IMG/VR virus record: IMGVR_UViG_3300025109_000077
Span: 1 to 22,155 of that record
Reading direction: 5' to 3' (one strand)
From: a virus
Length of the DNA: 22,155 nucleotides
Position numbers and translations under genes: made by a program. Below the pieces are notes generated by a model. It was not told where the DNA came from, made no database searches, and saw only the letters and a program-made list of their open reading frames with translations. Each line of letters opens with the position of its first letter. Position 1 is the first letter of the stretch. Shown one piece after another: positions 5,803-21,144 of this stretch.

Positions 5803-6504
5803 ATGTGGTCTAATTGGGACATGGAGAGACAGAAATCAAGAAAATCCTTCAGGCGCAGGAAACCGTCAAACAATGGTCATGGAGGGGGCTCCCTTCCTAC
5901 GACTACGATTAGGGAAAAGGAGGAAGCCCTTTTCATATCAGCATACCTCAACAGCTTTAATGCGAGACAAGCCTATATATCAATACGTCCAGATGTCACA
6001 ACAGGGACAGCAGGCGTGGAGGGTAGTAAATGGCTAAAGAAACCTCATATCATAGCTGAAGTGGACAGGCAACTCACTGTCCTATTTGAAACAGTCAATC
6101 TTAGCAATGAACAAATCCTAGCGGAACAATTAAAATTAGCCTTTGTAGATATCAGAGGTTTTTTTGATGATGATAATAACCTGAAGGAGATGTCACAATT
6201 AAACATAGCCCAGCAATCCGCAATAGAACAGATAGAGGTACAGGAAAATTATGAGGGACATGGTGACAAGAGGAAAAACATAGGCAAGACCACGAGGGTA
6301 AGATTTTATTCCAGACAGAAAGCCCTAGAGGCTTTAATGAAATATCGTGGTATGATTAGAGATGGTGGTAATACATTCAACTTCAAAGTAAATAATAATA
6401 TTGAGAAGGCACAATTAACAGTGGACATAAAAGCCCTGAAGGAGAAACTAGGTGCAGAGCGCATTATTGACATCAACAGACAACTCACAGAAAAAGATAA
6501 TTAA
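5803..6504 (+). CDS. terS: terminase small subunit (Terminase_2 type)
   Basis: TerS recognises phage DNA and recruits the large subunit to start packaging. After a basic N-terminus (QKSRKSFRRRK), residues about 40-85 (EALFISAYLNSFNARQAYIS, then GSKWLKKPHIIAEVDRQL) match the helix-turn-helix segment of the Terminase_2 family. The rest is helical oligomerisation sequence. At 233 residues it is somewhat longer than many relatives. Neither the ATG at 5803 nor the in-frame ATG at 5821 has a good SD, so the start is uncertain. The gene overlaps terL by 53 bases, as is common for this pair. Confidence 0.85.
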   Translation: MWSNWDMERQKSRKSFRRRKPSNNGHGGGSLPTTTIREKEEALFISAYLNSFNARQAYISIRPDVTTGTAGVEGSKWLKKPHIIAEVDRQLTVLFETVNLSNEQILAEQLKLAFVDIRGFFDDDNNLKEMSQLNIAQQSAIEQIEVQENYEGHGDKRKNIGKTTRVRFYSRQKALEALMKYRGMIRDGGNTFNFKVNNNIEKAQLTVDIKALKEKLGAERIIDINRQLTEKDN

Positions 6505-7954
6505 GCGTACAGTATCAGAGGAACTTTTAAGATATGCAGGCGCAGAGGTATCTTTAAAATTATACATCGAGCAAGCATGGCATGTAGTAGAACCTTCAAC
6601 TCCATTCGTAGGAGGGTGGCATCTGGATGCAATTTCCGAACACCTCCAAGCCTGTTCTACAGGAGAAATAAAACGCCTTATTATAAATATACCTCCAAGA
6701 CACATGAAATCTCTAGCTGTATGTGTATTCTTCCCAACATGGGTATGGATTAATGAGCCCACCTCAAGATGGTTATTCAGTTCCTACGCACAAGACCTCT
6801 CCACAAGAGATTCATTAAAATGCAGAAGATTAATACAATCAGAGTGGTATCAATCTATATGGGGAGATAGATATGAAATAACATCAGACCAAAACCAGAA
6901 AACAAGGTTTGAAAACAATTACACAGGAGTAAGATTATCTACTTCCGTAGATTCACTGGCATGCGGTGAGGGAGGTGACTACATAGTAGTAGATGACCCT
7001 CACAATACCAAGCAAGCAGAGAGTGAGTTAAAGAGGAATAATGTACTTTTATGGTGGGATGAAGTAATGAGTACGAGGTTAAATAATCCTAGAACTGGAG
7101 TCAAAATAATCGTGATGCAGCGTTTGCACGAACAGGATTTGACAGGACATATCTTAGAGAAAGAGCTAGATTATGAGCACCTCTGTCTCCCTGCCGAGTT
7201 TGAAGGAGGAACAAGATGCAAAACACGATTATTCACAGACCCACGCACCTCCAACGGAGAGGTTCTCTGGGACGGTATCTATAACAAACAGGCATTAGGT
7301 ATCCTTAAAAGGGAACTGAACGCTGAGGTGGACGAGTCTGGTAACACTATAACAGAATCCTATGCTGTAGCTGGACAACTCCAACAAAGGCCAGCCCCCA
7401 GAGGGGGAGGTATGTTTAAAGTAGAAAACTTCCGTACAATAAATATAGTAGACCCGAAGGAGATACAAAGGACAGTGAGGTACTGGGATAAGGCAGGGAC
7501 GGAGGACGGAGGCTGTGCCACCGCAGGAGTATTAATACATAGAATGAAGAATGGTAGTTTTATAGTAGCGGATAGGGTAAAAGGCAGATGGAGTGTAGGC
7601 AGAAGGGAGAAAAGAATAAGATTAACTGCTGAAATGGATGGTAAAGGAGTACATGTCTGGGTGGAACAGGAGCCAGGAAGTGGAGGTAAGGAATCAGCAG
7701 AAAACACTATAAGAAACCTCGCAGGATGGAGGGTTAAGGCAGATAAGGTAACAGGTGATAAGGTAGTGAGGGCAGAGCCCTATGCAGACCAAGTGGAGAT
7801 ATCTAATGTATTCCTCCTTAAGGGAGATTGGAATAAGGACTTTATACTGGAACATGAATCTTTCCCTGTAGGCAAGGAGAAGGACAGTGTAGATGCTACA
7901 GCGGGAGGGATAAATAAACTTATAGCACAGAAATCGAGGGCTGGGGTATGGTAA
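6452..7954 (+). CDS. terL: terminase large subunit
   Basis: TerL is the ATPase motor and nuclease that pumps and cuts DNA at the portal. The 500-residue product has a Walker A-like PPRHMKS (81-87; most relatives have PPRHGKS), Walker B IVVDDPH (178-184) and a coupling segment MQRLHEQDLTG (222-232). The C-terminal RNase H-like nuclease shows WDKAG (D346), VEQEPGSGGKE (E405/E407) and KDSVDATAG (D478, D481), a pattern typical of the TIGR01630-type C-terminal domain. A GTG start at 6452 sits seven bases after GGAG inside the end of terS. The Met in place of Gly in the P-loop is a small oddity. Confidence 0.93.
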   Translation: MQSALLTSTDNSQKKIIKRTVSEELLRYAGAEVSLKLYIEQAWHVVEPSTPFVGGWHLDAISEHLQACSTGEIKRLIINIPPRHMKSLAVCVFFPTWVWINEPTSRWLFSSYAQDLSTRDSLKCRRLIQSEWYQSIWGDRYEITSDQNQKTRFENNYTGVRLSTSVDSLACGEGGDYIVVDDPHNTKQAESELKRNNVLLWWDEVMSTRLNNPRTGVKIIVMQRLHEQDLTGHILEKELDYEHLCLPAEFEGGTRCKTRLFTDPRTSNGEVLWDGIYNKQALGILKRELNAEVDESGNTITESYAVAGQLQQRPAPRGGGMFKVENFRTINIVDPKEIQRTVRYWDKAGTEDGGCATAGVLIHRMKNGSFIVADRVKGRWSVGRREKRIRLTAEMDGKGVHVWVEQEPGSGGKESAENTIRNLAGWRVKADKVTGDKVVRAEPYADQVEISNVFLLKGDWNKDFILEHESFPVGKEKDSVDATAGGINKLIAQKSRAGVW

Positions 7955-8499: not shown

Positions 8500-10077
8500 A
8501 TGGTTAGGGATAAGAGGGACATAACACAACGGAAGAAAAGCTTTAAGCGGAAGGAGAAACCTGTAAACAGGCTGAAGCAAAACGCTGTGGCTAATGGTAA
8601 TGGTAACGGTATCTTTGACAGGTTGACGGAGGATACGAAGACACAATTATTAATAAATTTTCAACAGCAGATATCAAGGAGGGAGATTGCCAACAGGTTA
8701 GGGTTATCATTCAAGAATGATGCGAGGGATACTTATAAGGCATTAGGTTATCCTGTAGAACTTACATTCGACCACTACTGGGCATTTTATACTAGGGAAC
8801 ATATAGCAAAGAGGGTTGTAGATGCACCTGTCAATTCATGTTGGCAAAAGCCTCCCACGATATCGGAAATAGATTCTGATGATGGGGAGGACACTAAATT
8901 TGAAAAGGCATGGAGTACAATGGTGAATGAGCGTAAGATGTGGCATTATCTTACAAGGATAGATAAGCTGTCGGGCATAGGTCAATACGGTGTACTGTTA
9001 TTGGGGTTTGATGGTGGAGGGGAATTAAAGACGGAGGTGACCACAGCAACAAAGCTCTTATACGTCAGACCGTATAAGCAGAACAACATAACGATTAAGA
9101 AATTTGAGGATAATATAAATGATGAACGATACGGTCTCCCTAAGTTATACCATCTGGTAGTTACTAATGCCGATGGAGGGACTACGGAGACTATAGTACA
9201 TTGGTCTAGGATTATACATGTAGCCGATGAACTGATAGAGGATGATATCTTCGGGACACCCAGAATGATGAACGTATACAATCTTATCGCTGGACTCCAT
9301 CTGGTTGCTGGTGGTTCTGGTGAAATGTTCTGGAGGGGTGCATTTCCTGGTCTTGCATTCATACTTGATAAGGATGCGGAACTAGACCCGAATCAATCTA
9401 AGGCACTGTTGGAGACGGAGATTAATGATTACATCCATGATATGAATAGAACCATGCGATTACAGGGCATGGAGGTTCAGAACCTTGCGCCTCAGGTTGC
9501 AGACCCTTCAAAGCATGTTGAAACACTATTATCGTTAATATCAGGTGCAAGGGAGATTCCTAAAAGGATTCTTACTGGTGCTGAAAGAGGGGAACTAGGT
9601 GGAGATAGGGACGAATCAGCTTGGAACAAGAAGGTAAGGGAGAGACAGACAAACTTCTGTACGCCCATGATAGTCAGAGCTGTTATAGATAGATTAATCA
9701 AGTTCAAAGTCCTCCCTACACCTACTAAGGGGTACGAGGTAGAATGGCCAGATATTACATCACCGAACAAGGAAGAGGATGCGAAGGTGGCGGAGACTTT
9801 AGCTAAAGCGGTTGCCGTATACGGTAACGCATTAGGGGCTCAGGAAGTTGTCCCTCCAGAAGTGTTCCTGTCGGAGATAATGGGATTTGATACTGATGTT
9901 ATTAAGAAGATAACAGGTATCCTTGAGACTATGCAAGCAAGTGACTTGGAGGATGAAAGTAAGATAGATGAACAAAGGAAAGAGATAGAAGCTGAATTGA
10001 TTAAAGAAGGTAAGAACGAAATAGCAAAGAGGAAAGCTGTGGGAGATATTGCAGCTTCAACACAGGGAGACAGGTAG
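8500..10077 (+). CDS. portal protein (DUF1073 / phage_portal_3 type)
   Basis: The 525-residue product should form the dodecameric portal ring at one head vertex, through which TerL pumps DNA and to which the tail attaches. A basic, Asn-rich N-terminus of about 45 residues is followed by segments typical of DUF1073 portals: DHYWAFYTREHIAKRVVDAP, then GIGQYGVLLLGF, IVHWSRIIHVADE, FWRGAFPGLAF and LISGAREIPKRILTGAERGE. The ATG follows GGGGAGGACTATTAA. It lies downstream of terL and upstream of the MuF gene, the usual order. Its stop overlaps the next start (TAGTG). Confidence 0.88.
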   Translation: MVRDKRDITQRKKSFKRKEKPVNRLKQNAVANGNGNGIFDRLTEDTKTQLLINFQQQISRREIANRLGLSFKNDARDTYKALGYPVELTFDHYWAFYTREHIAKRVVDAPVNSCWQKPPTISEIDSDDGEDTKFEKAWSTMVNERKMWHYLTRIDKLSGIGQYGVLLLGFDGGGELKTEVTTATKLLYVRPYKQNNITIKKFEDNINDERYGLPKLYHLVVTNADGGTTETIVHWSRIIHVADELIEDDIFGTPRMMNVYNLIAGLHLVAGGSGEMFWRGAFPGLAFILDKDAELDPNQSKALLETEINDYIHDMNRTMRLQGMEVQNLAPQVADPSKHVETLLSLISGAREIPKRILTGAERGELGGDRDESAWNKKVRERQTNFCTPMIVRAVIDRLIKFKVLPTPTKGYEVEWPDITSPNKEEDAKVAETLAKAVAVYGNALGAQEVVPPEVFLSEIMGFDTDVIKKITGILETMQASDLEDESKIDEQRKEIEAELIKEGKNEIAKRKAVGDIAASTQGDR

Positions 10078-10678: not shown

Positions 10679-10696
10679 CAAAGAAGGAGCTGTACT

Positions 10697-11125
10697 ATGT
10701 TGGAAACTAAAGAGTGTAGTGTGACAAAAGCGTTGGAGTTGTTCATGGAAGCTGTTGAGTTTTCTACTGACCTTGAAATAGTTGGTACAGCTACTCCAGA
10801 GGACAAGGAAGTCTTTGTATTAAGGGACTACAGCAAGGCAGAAGGAGTAGACGGTGCTTTTGTAGAAGTTGCCATTGCTGAGTTGGTTGAAAAAGTTTCT
10901 GACATGGATAGAGCAAAACAATTCTTACAGGTCATTGCAAACGACAGGAAACCTATTGTGTGTGAGGGCGTTACGAGGATTGTAGGATATTATTCCAGAA
11001 TGAATAACTGGAATAAAAGTAAAGTGGGAGAGCTAAGAGACAGGCAAAGTAAGAATTATGCGCTTGGAGGGGCTTCCCCTGAATTTGATGCAGATAGAAG
11101 TACATACGTTAATAATTTATCTTAA
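10697..11125 (+). CDS. stand-alone NrdD-like glycyl-radical domain protein (142 aa)
   Basis: The C-terminal part (residues 93-120) contains TRIVGYYSRMNNWNKSK and ELRDR, the signature of the C-terminus of class III anaerobic ribonucleotide reductase, where the Gly of the RxxGYY segment (here G97) carries the radical installed by NrdG. The catalytic barrel and the CxxC pair of zinc cysteines that precede this loop in NrdD are absent; only C89 remains. Residues 1-85 are an acidic helical domain I cannot name. The start follows AAGAAGGAGCTGTACT. It may be an autonomous spare radical domain, like YfiD/GrcA for pyruvate formate-lyase, or a relic with a new role. The motif is clear; the activity is inferred. 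Confidence 0.65.
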   Translation: MLETKECSVTKALELFMEAVEFSTDLEIVGTATPEDKEVFVLRDYSKAEGVDGAFVEVAIAELVEKVSDMDRAKQFLQVIANDRKPIVCEGVTRIVGYYSRMNNWNKSKVGELRDRQSKNYALGGASPEFDADRSTYVNNLS

Positions 11126-12707: not shown

Positions 12708-15626
12708 ATGTGTATAACATGTAATGATACAAAAACAGTAAATTTATTAGTCAATACAGACCCGACAAGGACTCTGTCTACTAGGGTGAGGTTTGTTAAG
12801 GACGTGGAGAAGCGTTTTAAAGCCTTGCGTAAGGTTGTAGCGGATAGGATAGAGTCTGGGGCTTTACTGAAAAGAGATGATATAGGATTTACTATTAACA
12901 CAACAGCAGCGGAATGGAGGAGTAAGTACGACCCTGACAAAATACCAGAATTTATGGAATGGTTGGAGGAACAAAACAACAATTTCATATTAAGTAAAGG
13001 AGGGAAAGGTATACAAACATTCCCGACCCAGACTACTCCCATCTTTCCTGGTCGGGCTTCGTTTGATACTAAGACACAAACTACGACAAGAGTACTGGGA
13101 GGAGTGGAGGGAAGGTGGACAGATGTTCACATCAGGTCAGCTTATCAGAAGGGTGTACAGAGGGCTAGATTAGAACTAAGAAAAGGAGGGGTTGATATAC
13201 CGACTTTTGAATCTACATCCGAAGGTATAGGAGGTATTTTTAATGCTCCCTTCCATGTAGATAGAGTACAATTAGCATACAGTCAGACGTTTACAGGAAT
13301 GCAAGGCGTTACAAAGGCAATGGAAGCCCCTATAGCTAGGGTATTAGCTACAGGCATGGCGGAGGGTAGAAATCCTAGAGCATTGGCATTACAAATTGCT
13401 GGTATTAAAGGGGAGATTAATAAGGTAGGATTGAGTAGGGCTAGGACGTTGGCAAGGACAGAAGTTATAAGGGCTCATCATGGAGCAAACATTGCTGAGT
13501 TCAGGGCGTTTGCGATAGAGGACGTAATAGTAAAAGCTGAATGGTTAACGGCTGGCGATAATAGGGTATGTCCCAGATGTGATGTAATGGAGGGACAAAT
13601 ATTTAAACTGGACGAAATAGAACCACTAATACCCCTCCATCCTAATTGTCGGTGTGTTGCTATTCCTATAACACCTAGAAATAAAAAGTTTGGTAAGCCC
13701 AAAGGAGAAGACCAGTCTGTGCGAGGGTTTGCAGGAAAACTTCCTCCTTGTCTTGATACAAACGAAGTAAGGCTAACGTTAAATGCGCCTATAGCATGTA
13801 TCAGTAAGAAGGATAAAATTAGGGCATTGAGGGCAAAGAAAGCCTTTGTGCCTTCTACAAAAGCTATGCAACGGTTGGGAAAAGCTAATGAAGTTTCATT
13901 AGCCAAACTTATTAAAGGAGAGTCTTTCATCACTAATGAGCCGTTTGATGTTATAGTAAAAGCGGCTGGAAAGAGGGCTCACATGATAGAGGTGAAAACC
14001 CTGATAAAGACTAAAGTAGATAAGATTACTATGAGAAAAGCGTCCCGATTAAGAAAGTTGGCGGAGGCTGCAAAACATCGTGGTGGTCAAGTACATACAG
14101 TAGTGTTTGATGCTAGAGGGAAAGGAAGACCAAAGATATTTTATTCACAGGGCGTAGGGAGTTTCAGGCTTGGAGGCATGCGGAAGGTATCACAGAAAGA
14201 ACTGAAAGGAATATTTAGTAGTGGTAGAGCAACAAGTAGTCCTATACGGATTAAACCAATAGCTAAAATAAAGGAAACAACAGTGGGGTGGAAGAGGGTT
14301 AGTAGTGGTAAAGATTTTGTGCCTCAGATGTCGAAGATGACAGGGAAAGGTCTTACTCTTACTGGCGATAAACAGGCTTTTGTGAGAGAGTTTGGGAACA
14401 CACTTGGTAGGGATTTTAACAGGGTATTTAATGACCCAAAGAATAAGGGATTGAGAGCGTTTGCAAAAAAGAACCCTCTTAAAGAGTTTAACTTTCAAAG
14501 ACCACATAAGATACAATATACTGGCCCCTCTAACAGTGGGGTAGGGAGCAATCTTACCAATGCTTTTTATGATGAGTCTAAGAAAAGTATACATACTGGA
14601 ATGAAAGGATACAATACCTCCAACACTTTAAGATTGAGTGAAGATGTTTTCAATGTTACTGGAAATGATTTTGCAGGGATGGTGAGGCATGAATATGGGC
14701 ATCATATTTTAGAGAATGGAGGAAAGAAGTTTACAGATGCATATTATAGGGTATGGAGTAAATACGAGAATCAGATGCGGATTTCAGACTATGGCACAGC
14801 AAATTATAGAGAACAGTTTGCAGAAGCGTGGGCTGCGTTTACTTCTCCTAAGTATGCTACAACGCCAGCTCTTAGGCTTCATTCAGGTATAGAAAAACTA
14901 TTCACTAAGTTTATACAGGGTGAAGGAGGCTTTGGGAAAGAGGTTGTTAAAAAGATAGTTAAGAAAGTACCTAAAGTTAAAAAGATAAAATCAACAGTGG
15001 GAGGATGGAAAAAGATAAGTACCAAAAAGGAATTTGAGAAAGGGATGAGTTCCCTTTTAGGAAAGAACTTTAAGGTGAAAGGACTTTCTAGTGGAGCAGA
15101 AGATGTGTTTATAAAGAAGTATGCTAACGATGTGGGAGAGTCTTTAACCAACATGGCAAAGGGACATGGCAAGTTGGAGAAGTTAATGAAGAAAAAAACA
15201 TTAAAGAGTTTTGTTTTCGATGATGCAGATAAAGTAAAGTGGGTACAATATACAGGTGATAGAGCTAAGAAGGTGGATGCTTTTTATAAAAATAAAGAAA
15301 TCACTGCCTCCCTTAAAGGGTTCTCTAATAGACAACAATTAAAAGCAGGGAATGGAGTATTTAATGTTACTGGAAATGATTTTGCAGGAATGATAAGACA
15401 TGAGTATGGACATCATATTTACAACTCCATCCCACAAAGCACACAAGATAAGTTTATTGATATTTTTATTAATGAGAATACAAGAGGGGTTTCTAAATAT
15501 GCAGACACAAACGTATTGGAATTATTTGCAGAGTCATTTGCAGCATTTACTTCTCCTTCATTCTCAAAGGTGAAATCAAAAATACCGTCTTCAATAGAAA
15601 AGTTTTTAGTTAATTTGTTTGATTAG
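12708..15626 (+). CDS. MuF head protein with PD-(D/E)XK-like nuclease and two zincin domains (972 aa)
   Basis: The N-terminal ~330 residues form a phage Mu gpF-type minor head domain: DPTRTLSTRVRFVKDVEKRF near the start, then ARTLARTEVIRAHHGANIAE (246-265) and the zinc-type CPRC and HPNCRC segments (288-291, 311-316). Residues 391-480 look like a restriction-endonuclease fold, with E395, FDVIV (D414) and IEVK (E428, K430). Two tandem copies of a zincin-like domain follow, each with VTGNDFAGMxRHEYGHH (H661/E662/H665; H898/E899/H902) and a downstream AExxAAFTSP that could give the third ligand Glu. MuF proteins sit in the capsid and some carry toxin or enzyme cargo. The start at 12708 has no good SD. 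Confidence 0.85.
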   Translation: MCITCNDTKTVNLLVNTDPTRTLSTRVRFVKDVEKRFKALRKVVADRIESGALLKRDDIGFTINTTAAEWRSKYDPDKIPEFMEWLEEQNNNFILSKGGKGIQTFPTQTTPIFPGRASFDTKTQTTTRVLGGVEGRWTDVHIRSAYQKGVQRARLELRKGGVDIPTFESTSEGIGGIFNAPFHVDRVQLAYSQTFTGMQGVTKAMEAPIARVLATGMAEGRNPRALALQIAGIKGEINKVGLSRARTLARTEVIRAHHGANIAEFRAFAIEDVIVKAEWLTAGDNRVCPRCDVMEGQIFKLDEIEPLIPLHPNCRCVAIPITPRNKKFGKPKGEDQSVRGFAGKLPPCLDTNEVRLTLNAPIACISKKDKIRALRAKKAFVPSTKAMQRLGKANEVSLAKLIKGESFITNEPFDVIVKAAGKRAHMIEVKTLIKTKVDKITMRKASRLRKLAEAAKHRGGQVHTVVFDARGKGRPKIFYSQGVGSFRLGGMRKVSQKELKGIFSSGRATSSPIRIKPIAKIKETTVGWKRVSSGKDFVPQMSKMTGKGLTLTGDKQAFVREFGNTLGRDFNRVFNDPKNKGLRAFAKKNPLKEFNFQRPHKIQYTGPSNSGVGSNLTNAFYDESKKSIHTGMKGYNTSNTLRLSEDVFNVTGNDFAGMVRHEYGHHILENGGKKFTDAYYRVWSKYENQMRISDYGTANYREQFAEAWAAFTSPKYATTPALRLHSGIEKLFTKFIQGEGGFGKEVVKKIVKKVPKVKKIKSTVGGWKKISTKKEFEKGMSSLLGKNFKVKGLSSGAEDVFIKKYANDVGESLTNMAKGHGKLEKLMKKKTLKSFVFDDADKVKWVQYTGDRAKKVDAFYKNKEITASLKGFSNRQQLKAGNGVFNVTGNDFAGMIRHEYGHHIYNSIPQSTQDKFIDIFINENTRGVSKYADTNVLELFAESFAAFTSPSFSKVKSKIPSSIEKFLVNLFD
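14283..15623 (+). repeat. tandem intragenic duplication of the zincin domain
   Basis: Unit 1 spans about 14283-14913 (residues 526-735) and unit 2 about 14997-15623 (764-972). Both begin VGWK/VGGWK, share FNVTGNDFAGM and RHEYGHH, and end near an AAFTSP segment plus SIEK. At DNA level 26 bases are identical at 14652-14677 and 15363-15388, while the rest has diverged. Confidence 0.8.
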
Positions 15627-20088: not shown

Positions 20089-20124
20089 GTATTTTTAATT
20101 TATTTATTGGAGGAAATTGTAACG

Positions 20125-21144
20125 ATGATTAATTACAACAACATGATTGATACACCCGCAGAAGTGGGTAGTGTTGATAACTTCCTCGGTGGAGCAGGCG
20201 GAGACATAGCACACAAACTCATAGCTAATAATATGAATATTAGTTCACTGAGAAACAATGCTACACTTACCTATGACGCTTGGAAGAAAATTGACACAGC
20301 AGTACTAAGGGAGTACCAGATTAGGTTACAAGGCATAGCTGACTTGCAGAACAAGGGGCTTACCTTTCAGACCGATGGACTCGCCCAGACCATGTTACAG
20401 TATCAGGATGAAAGTGACATCACAGATGCAGAGATTAACATGGATGGAGTAAATCGGACTGATAGAGACCGACCTGAGTGGGATACTTTATTTCTCCCAT
20501 TGCCTATCATCTCTAAGAACTTTAGTTTTAGTGCTAGGGAGATAGCAGCAAGTAGAAACACAGGACAGGCTTTAGACACAAGGATGGCTGAGAAGGCATC
20601 CAGAAAAGTTGCTGAGAAAGCAGAAGAGATTCTCTTTCAGGGTGCGAGTGCCTATACTGCTGGTGCTAGTGGAGAGACTGGTACTATTAGAGGGTATGAA
20701 GACCATCCGAACCGTAACACTGGTTCTGTAACAGCAGCATGGGCTTCTACAACTGGAGCAAACATATTGACTGACACTATAGCCATGAAGAATGCGGCGA
20801 TAGCTGACAGGAAATACGGGCCGTATACGATGTATGTTGCAACTAACATCGAGGGCAATCTTGACCAGAACTTTACAACTAATTACCCTGTCACTGTAAG
20901 ACAGAGAATCCTTCAGGTGGAGAACATCACTGAATTAAAAGTGATTGATAAGATGACAGCTGGTGGAGTCCTGTTGATTAGCATGCAGAGTGACGTTGTA
21001 AGGCTTGTACAAGGTTTACCAATCCAGACAGTTGAATGGTCTACTGATGGAGGCATGATGGTTCACTTTAAAGTGATGGCTATTATAGTTCCACAGGTTT
21101 TCAAAGACCAGAGCAACAGGTCTGGTGTTATTCATTATTCATAA
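20125..21144 (+). CDS. major capsid protein (HK97 / encapsulin-like fold)
   Basis: The ATG at 20125 follows GGAGGAAATTGTAACG; upstream codons are leader. The 339-residue product has features of the DUF6260/encapsulin-like capsid family: a long N-terminal arm, LPLPIISKNFSFSAREIAAS, RMAEKASRKVAEKAEEILFQ (spine helix), IRGYEDHPNR, GPYTMYVATNIEGNLD and a C-terminal HFKVMAIIVPQVF. It would form the icosahedral shell with the decoration protein. Synteny with DUF2213 upstream supports this. Confidence 0.85.
   Translation: MINYNNMIDTPAEVGSVDNFLGGAGGDIAHKLIANNMNISSLRNNATLTYDAWKKIDTAVLREYQIRLQGIADLQNKGLTFQTDGLAQTMLQYQDESDITDAEINMDGVNRTDRDRPEWDTLFLPLPIISKNFSFSAREIAASRNTGQALDTRMAEKASRKVAEKAEEILFQGASAYTAGASGETGTIRGYEDHPNRNTGSVTAAWASTTGANILTDTIAMKNAAIADRKYGPYTMYVATNIEGNLDQNFTTNYPVTVRQRILQVENITELKVIDKMTAGGVLLISMQSDVVRLVQGLPIQTVEWSTDGGMMVHFKVMAIIVPQVFKDQSNRSGVIHYS

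Follow-up and report, generated by a model that had tools for sequence, protein, structure and literature searches.

The window, meaning the whole stretch of 22,155 nucleotides that was analysed (positions 1 to 22,155 of the IMG/VR virus record IMGVR_UViG_3300025109_000077), contains, between the tailed-phage genes for the portal and MuF proteins, a gene for a small putative glycyl-radical protein. The features of this locus are as follows:

6452..7954, + strand, large terminase (context; PF17289)
8500..10077, + strand, portal protein (context; PF06381)
10684..10689, + strand, Shine-Dalgarno-like AAGGAG, eight bases upstream of the ATG (from the sequence)
10697..11125, + strand, predicted gene of a stand-alone NrdD-type glycyl-radical protein (ORF of 142 aa with ATG start; NRDD C-terminal match, homologues, dN/dS)
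10697..10951, + strand, predicted N-terminal alpha/beta domain, residues 1-85, H-E-E-E-H-H (AlphaFold2)
10952..11047, + strand, glycyl-radical loop, residues 86-117, corresponding to NRDD positions 532-560 (profile match, conservation)
10985..10987, + strand, codon GGA of G97, the predicted radical glycine (unchanged in all 24 aligned members and all 64 anammox copies)
12708..15626, + strand, MuF-type head protein with C-terminal extensions (context; PF04233)
20107..21144, + strand, major capsid protein (context; PF19774, PF09950, PF04454)

The sequence-only reading had proposed a 142-residue product encoded in a phage head operon, and both parts of this proposal were borne out, the first by the ATG and the upstream AAGGAG, the second by the terminase, portal, MuF and major capsid families flanking the gene. 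A promoter scan before the gene gave nothing above expectation.

The loop of the window protein reads TRIVG97YYSR..NNWNKSK..ELRDR, which contains the C-terminal motif RxxGY...W.KxK..E...R typical of NrdD. Residues 86-117 match positions 532-560 of the 562 positions of the Pfam family NRDD (PF13597) with an E-value of 2.4e-5 and 23.6 bits, just below the cut-off of 26.2 bits, and the end of TIGR02487 is also matched (E 3e-4). Every one of the 24 aligned family members also hits NRDD (best E 1.1e-6), with an invariant G97, so the sub-threshold score is not due to chance, and a chance match was ruled out. The mean frequency of the commonest residue is 0.92 in residues 91-117 versus 0.58 in residues 1-85. 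The protein shares 21 of 26 loop residues with the loop of a Planctomycetota NrdD, but lacks the barrel, ATP cone and zinc cysteines of NrdD (PF13597, TIGR02487). The ten-stranded barrel with the thiyl cysteine is absent, as the 142-residue protein matches only the last 30 profile positions, and there is no zinc-binding C..C...C..C before the loop, the only Cys residues being at positions 7 and 89. Thus, the assignment of the C-terminus to the NrdD radical loop without barrel or zinc cysteines, made earlier from the letters alone, stands: NRDD is the only Pfam family found there (24/24 members), and G97 is replaced in none of the 24 aligned homologues or the 64 anammox copies. PF01228 (Gly_radical) gave no match with the window protein at E-values up to 1 or with the 24 family members at 0.1.

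AlphaFold2, run with 24 relatives, predicts a compact alpha/beta domain for residues 11-80 (pLDDT 84-90), whereas loop residues 86-105 have low confidence (pLDDT under 50), as expected for a segment that would become ordered only on its partner. Profile searches with the N-terminal domain found no Pfam or PHROG family, and fold searches revealed no significant PDB or viral match (best Foldseek E 0.15 against PDB and 0.02 against the viral library; best VIA Z 4.9, HicB3). This part had been described as helical and not recognised; the latter holds, but the predicted fold is not purely helical. The domain is perhaps the docking module of the radical protein.

Related proteins on viral contigs are of two kinds. 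Those of kind (a) (the window, L002-L005 and L017-L028) have 132-168 aa with a variable N-terminal part and a nearly invariant TRIVGYYSR[MV].NWNKSK..EL..R, and those of kind (b) (L029-L034) have 51-116 aa and are barely more than the loop. The ANMV-1 virus has a third form, a zinc-ribbon-like part followed by the loop, and was the only known phage or plasmid record with a comparable stand-alone domain among the matches inspected. Its 144-residue protein AJP62049 (L010 5680-6114, KP703175) is annotated as an anaerobic reductase, and similar proteins are present in L101 and L104, from genomes that also carry intact NrdD. The phage records (6 to 87 kb) contain no full NrdD and exactly one NRDD match each, and NrdG is absent from all 15 records tested, which answers the earlier suggestion to look for intact nrdD and nrdG elsewhere in the phage. 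A broken full-length phage nrdD was ruled out, since no phage record has a second NRDD match. Close phage copies (L017, L019 and L021) show dN/dS of 0.10-0.15, indicative of purifying selection, and phage copies occur in differing phage gene neighbourhoods. Purifying selection and repeated capture into different neighbourhoods indicate that the gene is useful to the phage, but not how.

Among 84,980 species genomes scanned, stand-alone proteins of kind (a) turned up in Planctomycetota MAGs, including those of Candidatus Scalindua and Anammoxibacter. The order to which the Scalindua genome G030 belongs, taken as Brocadiales from its named members, is represented by 62 genomes (most anammox genomes are incomplete MAGs); 58 of them carry the gene, in 64 copies that all retain RIVGY[YF]S[RK]. 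In most Scalindua its chromosomal surroundings are conserved, with GroEL, Hsp20 and Lon genes upstream and BadF-type ATPase genes downstream (names assigned by eye), which identifies the stand-alone protein as a host gene product and rules out a prophage origin of most Scalindua copies. The stand-alone protein thus belongs to the conserved genes of the host and is no phage invention. A tree of 75 proteins places the phage copies within the host ones, with five changes of the host/phage label at best and four forced by well supported branches; this number of transfers is approximate, as the bootstrap did not settle completely and the tree contains some long branches. The window clade is the sister of Candidatus Scalindua arabica (support 100/99), and the tree therefore suggests that Scalindua, marine anammox bacteria, are the likely host lineage of the phage. 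Some Brocadiaceae-type genomes (G076, G079, G065 and G075; L224, L250, L218 and L240) have a second, divergent stand-alone copy, perhaps prophage-borne.

Anammox NrdD has lost its radical glycine in many genomes and is otherwise complete, with ATP cone, NRDD domain and zinc cysteines retained. The thiyl motif ACCRL (CCRL) is present in 62/62 readable NrdDs including six outgroups, and nrdG lies directly downstream of nrdD in the anammox genomes examined, so that Scalindua, the host suggested by the tree, has a cognate nrdD-nrdG pair. The glycine column of 57 readable anammox NrdDs contains G (33 proteins), S (13), T (3), C (3), D (2), N (1), L (1) and A (1); hence the glycine is gone from 24 of the 57, in Scalindua as well as other lineages. 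For example, the loop of the Scalindua G030 NrdD reads YGIRKRVSHDKINNWDRTKIEEL versus YGITRIVGYFSRVNNWNKSKIGEL in relatives. Scalindua-clade loops carry a one-residue deletion, and the flanking R-I-V-x-Y is degraded in the glycine-less NrdDs. Two of the 33 glycines (G053 and G055) are in an altered RxDGY context, and the NrdD of G085, from an otherwise intact clade, reads RIGDYF. On an NrdD tree built without the loop, the glycine state changed at least five times. G031 and G027 (L140 and L141) have a second, more canonical NrdG-like gene away from nrdD (TIGR02491 E 1.7e-31 and 1.5e-28).

The stand-alone gene is present in 22 of the 24 glycine-less genomes. The loss of the glycine from an otherwise intact NrdD, together with an invariant stand-alone loop, points to a loop that is under relaxed constraint in cis but fully constrained in trans. 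No class I/II large subunit (PF02867) was detected in seven of the glycine-less genomes, which should leave NrdD as their sole ribonucleotide reductase (RNR) and argues that it works; gaps in the MAGs weaken this argument. The following points count against action in trans: the gene was not detected in the glycine-less genomes G060 and G101; in anammox MAGs, NrdD and the stand-alone gene are on different contigs; many glycine-less genomes have a PF02867 RNR as well and could live without a working NrdD; and the phage gene is placed with late head genes rather than replication genes.

A glycine-less NrdD might itself be an aminoacyl-radical enzyme acting through Ser, Ala or Thr, with the small protein doing something else. 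Radical enzymes using Ala, Ser or Thr exist (PMC11528403), and S, T or A occupies the glycine position in 17 of the 24 proteins. However, C, D, N and L are also found there, the degraded motif and the shortened Scalindua-clade loops look like relaxed constraint, and the stand-alone loop stays invariant. This explanation is disfavoured, and we consider it very improbable, although a Ser, Ala or Thr radical may apply to individual lineages.

In the Brocadiaceae-type clade most genomes combine an intact NrdD loop with the stand-alone protein. This arrangement would suit a pure spare part that replaces the NrdD C-terminus only after oxygen cleavage at its glycine, for which GrcA provides a precedent with pyruvate formate-lyase (PMC8683613). 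Yet the nearest host lineage of the phage has no NrdD glycine to cleave, so repair cannot be the small protein's whole function there, and we regard an exclusive spare-part role as unlikely. The sequence-only reading had proposed a spare part for host NrdD that keeps dNTP synthesis running after oxygen damage. Strong support for action on host NrdD comes from homology, distribution and conservation, and from the operon context in other bacteria, but the restriction to oxygen damage is probably too narrow, since Scalindua NrdD lacks the glycine.

Outside the anammox order, the partner enzyme may lack the entire loop. Independent splits of this type occur in Halanaerobium, Thermodesulfobacterium, Patescibacteria, Chloroflexota and others: NrdD ends at about position 530 of 562, and a separate gene of 42-66 codons, often 25-900 nt downstream of the loop-less nrdD, encodes the remaining 30 positions. 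In a sample of the Halanaerobium phylum not chosen for the loop, and with low-scoring divergent partial matches left out, a stand-alone loop is present in 4/4 genomes with loop-less NrdD versus about 2/43 with complete NrdD. With the centre genome omitted the counts are 3/3 versus about 2/43 (p 6.6e-4, indicative only, given the relatedness of the genomes). The most telling gene context linking such loops to RNR is that of Spirochaetales, where the order is nrdR, nrdD core, a loop fused to a thioredoxin fold and an nrdG-like radical SAM gene. This operon is located at L075 3338-7091 and also in L056 and L077, and the loop-thioredoxin protein is perhaps a radical carrier and reductant in one.

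The same gene order bears on a regulatory or dominant-negative function, in which the small protein would dock on NrdD or NrdG and block or redirect host dNTP synthesis without a catalytic radical. Docking is expected under either reading, and phages commonly control the nucleotide metabolism of their hosts. However, a blocker need not keep the glycine and the entire loop invariant, and the loop domain is an operon member between nrdD and nrdG. We therefore find such a function highly unlikely.

Based on sequence, conservation, phylogeny, the loss of the glycine with the rest of NrdD retained, and operon neighbours, we consider it very likely that the window gene encodes a glycyl-radical subunit acting in trans on the host class III RNR, either as sole carrier or as spare part. 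The radical-transfer steps can be proposed by analogy with GrcA (PMC8683613, PMC12338860), with binding to the acceptor, activation of the loop, entry into the barrel and transfer to the catalytic cysteine. On this analogy, the N-terminal domain would dock the small protein on host NrdD, and the host radical-SAM activase NrdG would abstract hydrogen from G97. The loop would then enter the NrdD barrel, where G97 would hand the radical to the thiyl cysteine, and the reduced ribonucleotides would feed phage DNA synthesis. The binding and activation parts could be served, as in GrcA, by the N-terminal domain together with the NNWD.TK..EL that remains in Scalindua NrdD. With an intact host NrdD the protein could act as a spare part; for the window phage it would be the only radical carrier, because its likely host is Scalindua with a glycine-less NrdD. 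The phage would bring only the 142-residue subunit and borrow NrdD and NrdG, thus renewing the part destroyed by oxygen, or perhaps limiting, while reusing the long-lived host proteins.

Like the window protein, E. coli GrcA (YfiD) is a small stand-alone glycyl-radical domain without a catalytic barrel that has an extra N-terminal part and acts in trans with a radical-SAM activase; a phage example of such a domain is Y06I of T4. In contrast, GrcA and Y06I serve pyruvate formate-lyase and have different N-terminal domains, whereas the window protein has an NrdD-type loop (NRDD alone in Pfam) and a family of partner enzymes that lost their own glycine for good in part of its range. Spare radical parts have been validated for pyruvate formate-lyase only, and those for other glycyl radical enzymes proposed but not shown (PMC8683613). 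E. coli PflB G734A produces formate only with GrcA, and the full-length variant is rescued in vivo (PMC12338860). By analogy, this pair is the laboratory equivalent of the natural state suggested for Scalindua. In the split class II RNR NrdJa+NrdJb of Pseudomonas aeruginosa a C-terminal functional domain is likewise a separate product (PMC4520616, PMC5704485), but it is cysteine-rich and serves reduction and oligomerisation, not radical storage. Phage nrdD genes split by introns and homing endonucleases (PMC3653736) also yield NrdD pieces, but are interrupted full enzymes, unlike a radical domain alone that is conserved as a separate gene across host genomes. We found no description of a separate, split or trans NrdD glycyl-radical subunit in the open-licence literature, although single small ORFs are annotated as reductase in databases.

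The window family would thus extend the spare-part principle to RNR and go further, as the radical residue seems to have been shifted out of the enzyme in entire bacterial lineages. Class III RNR probably exists, with several independent origins, as an obligate two-chain enzyme of a glycine-less catalytic chain and an exchangeable radical subunit, on which anammox bacteria would depend and which phages would have captured repeatedly, driving host dNTP synthesis. The annotation of class III RNR would then change, with glycine-less NrdDs not dead and tiny 'reductase' ORFs not fragments. It would also explain DNA-precursor supply in anammox bacteria and reveal a very cheap phage route to a hold over host nucleotide metabolism.

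Several other genes of the window have distinctive features. The MuF-type protein (12708-15626) contains two similar C-terminal regions with HEYGHH followed by an AAFTSP-type motif (weak match to the PF07737 metallopeptidases); it also has a weak NOV_C match and resembles effector-tipped MuF proteins. The major capsid protein (20107-21144) also matches encapsulin families (PF04454; NF041155 below cut-off). A GP88-family protein (PF17338, E 3e-30) is encoded on the opposite strand (1813-2445, -), and a tiny SEC-C zinc-motif protein (PF02810, 10237-10443) is conserved with two adjoining small ORFs in L002 and L003.
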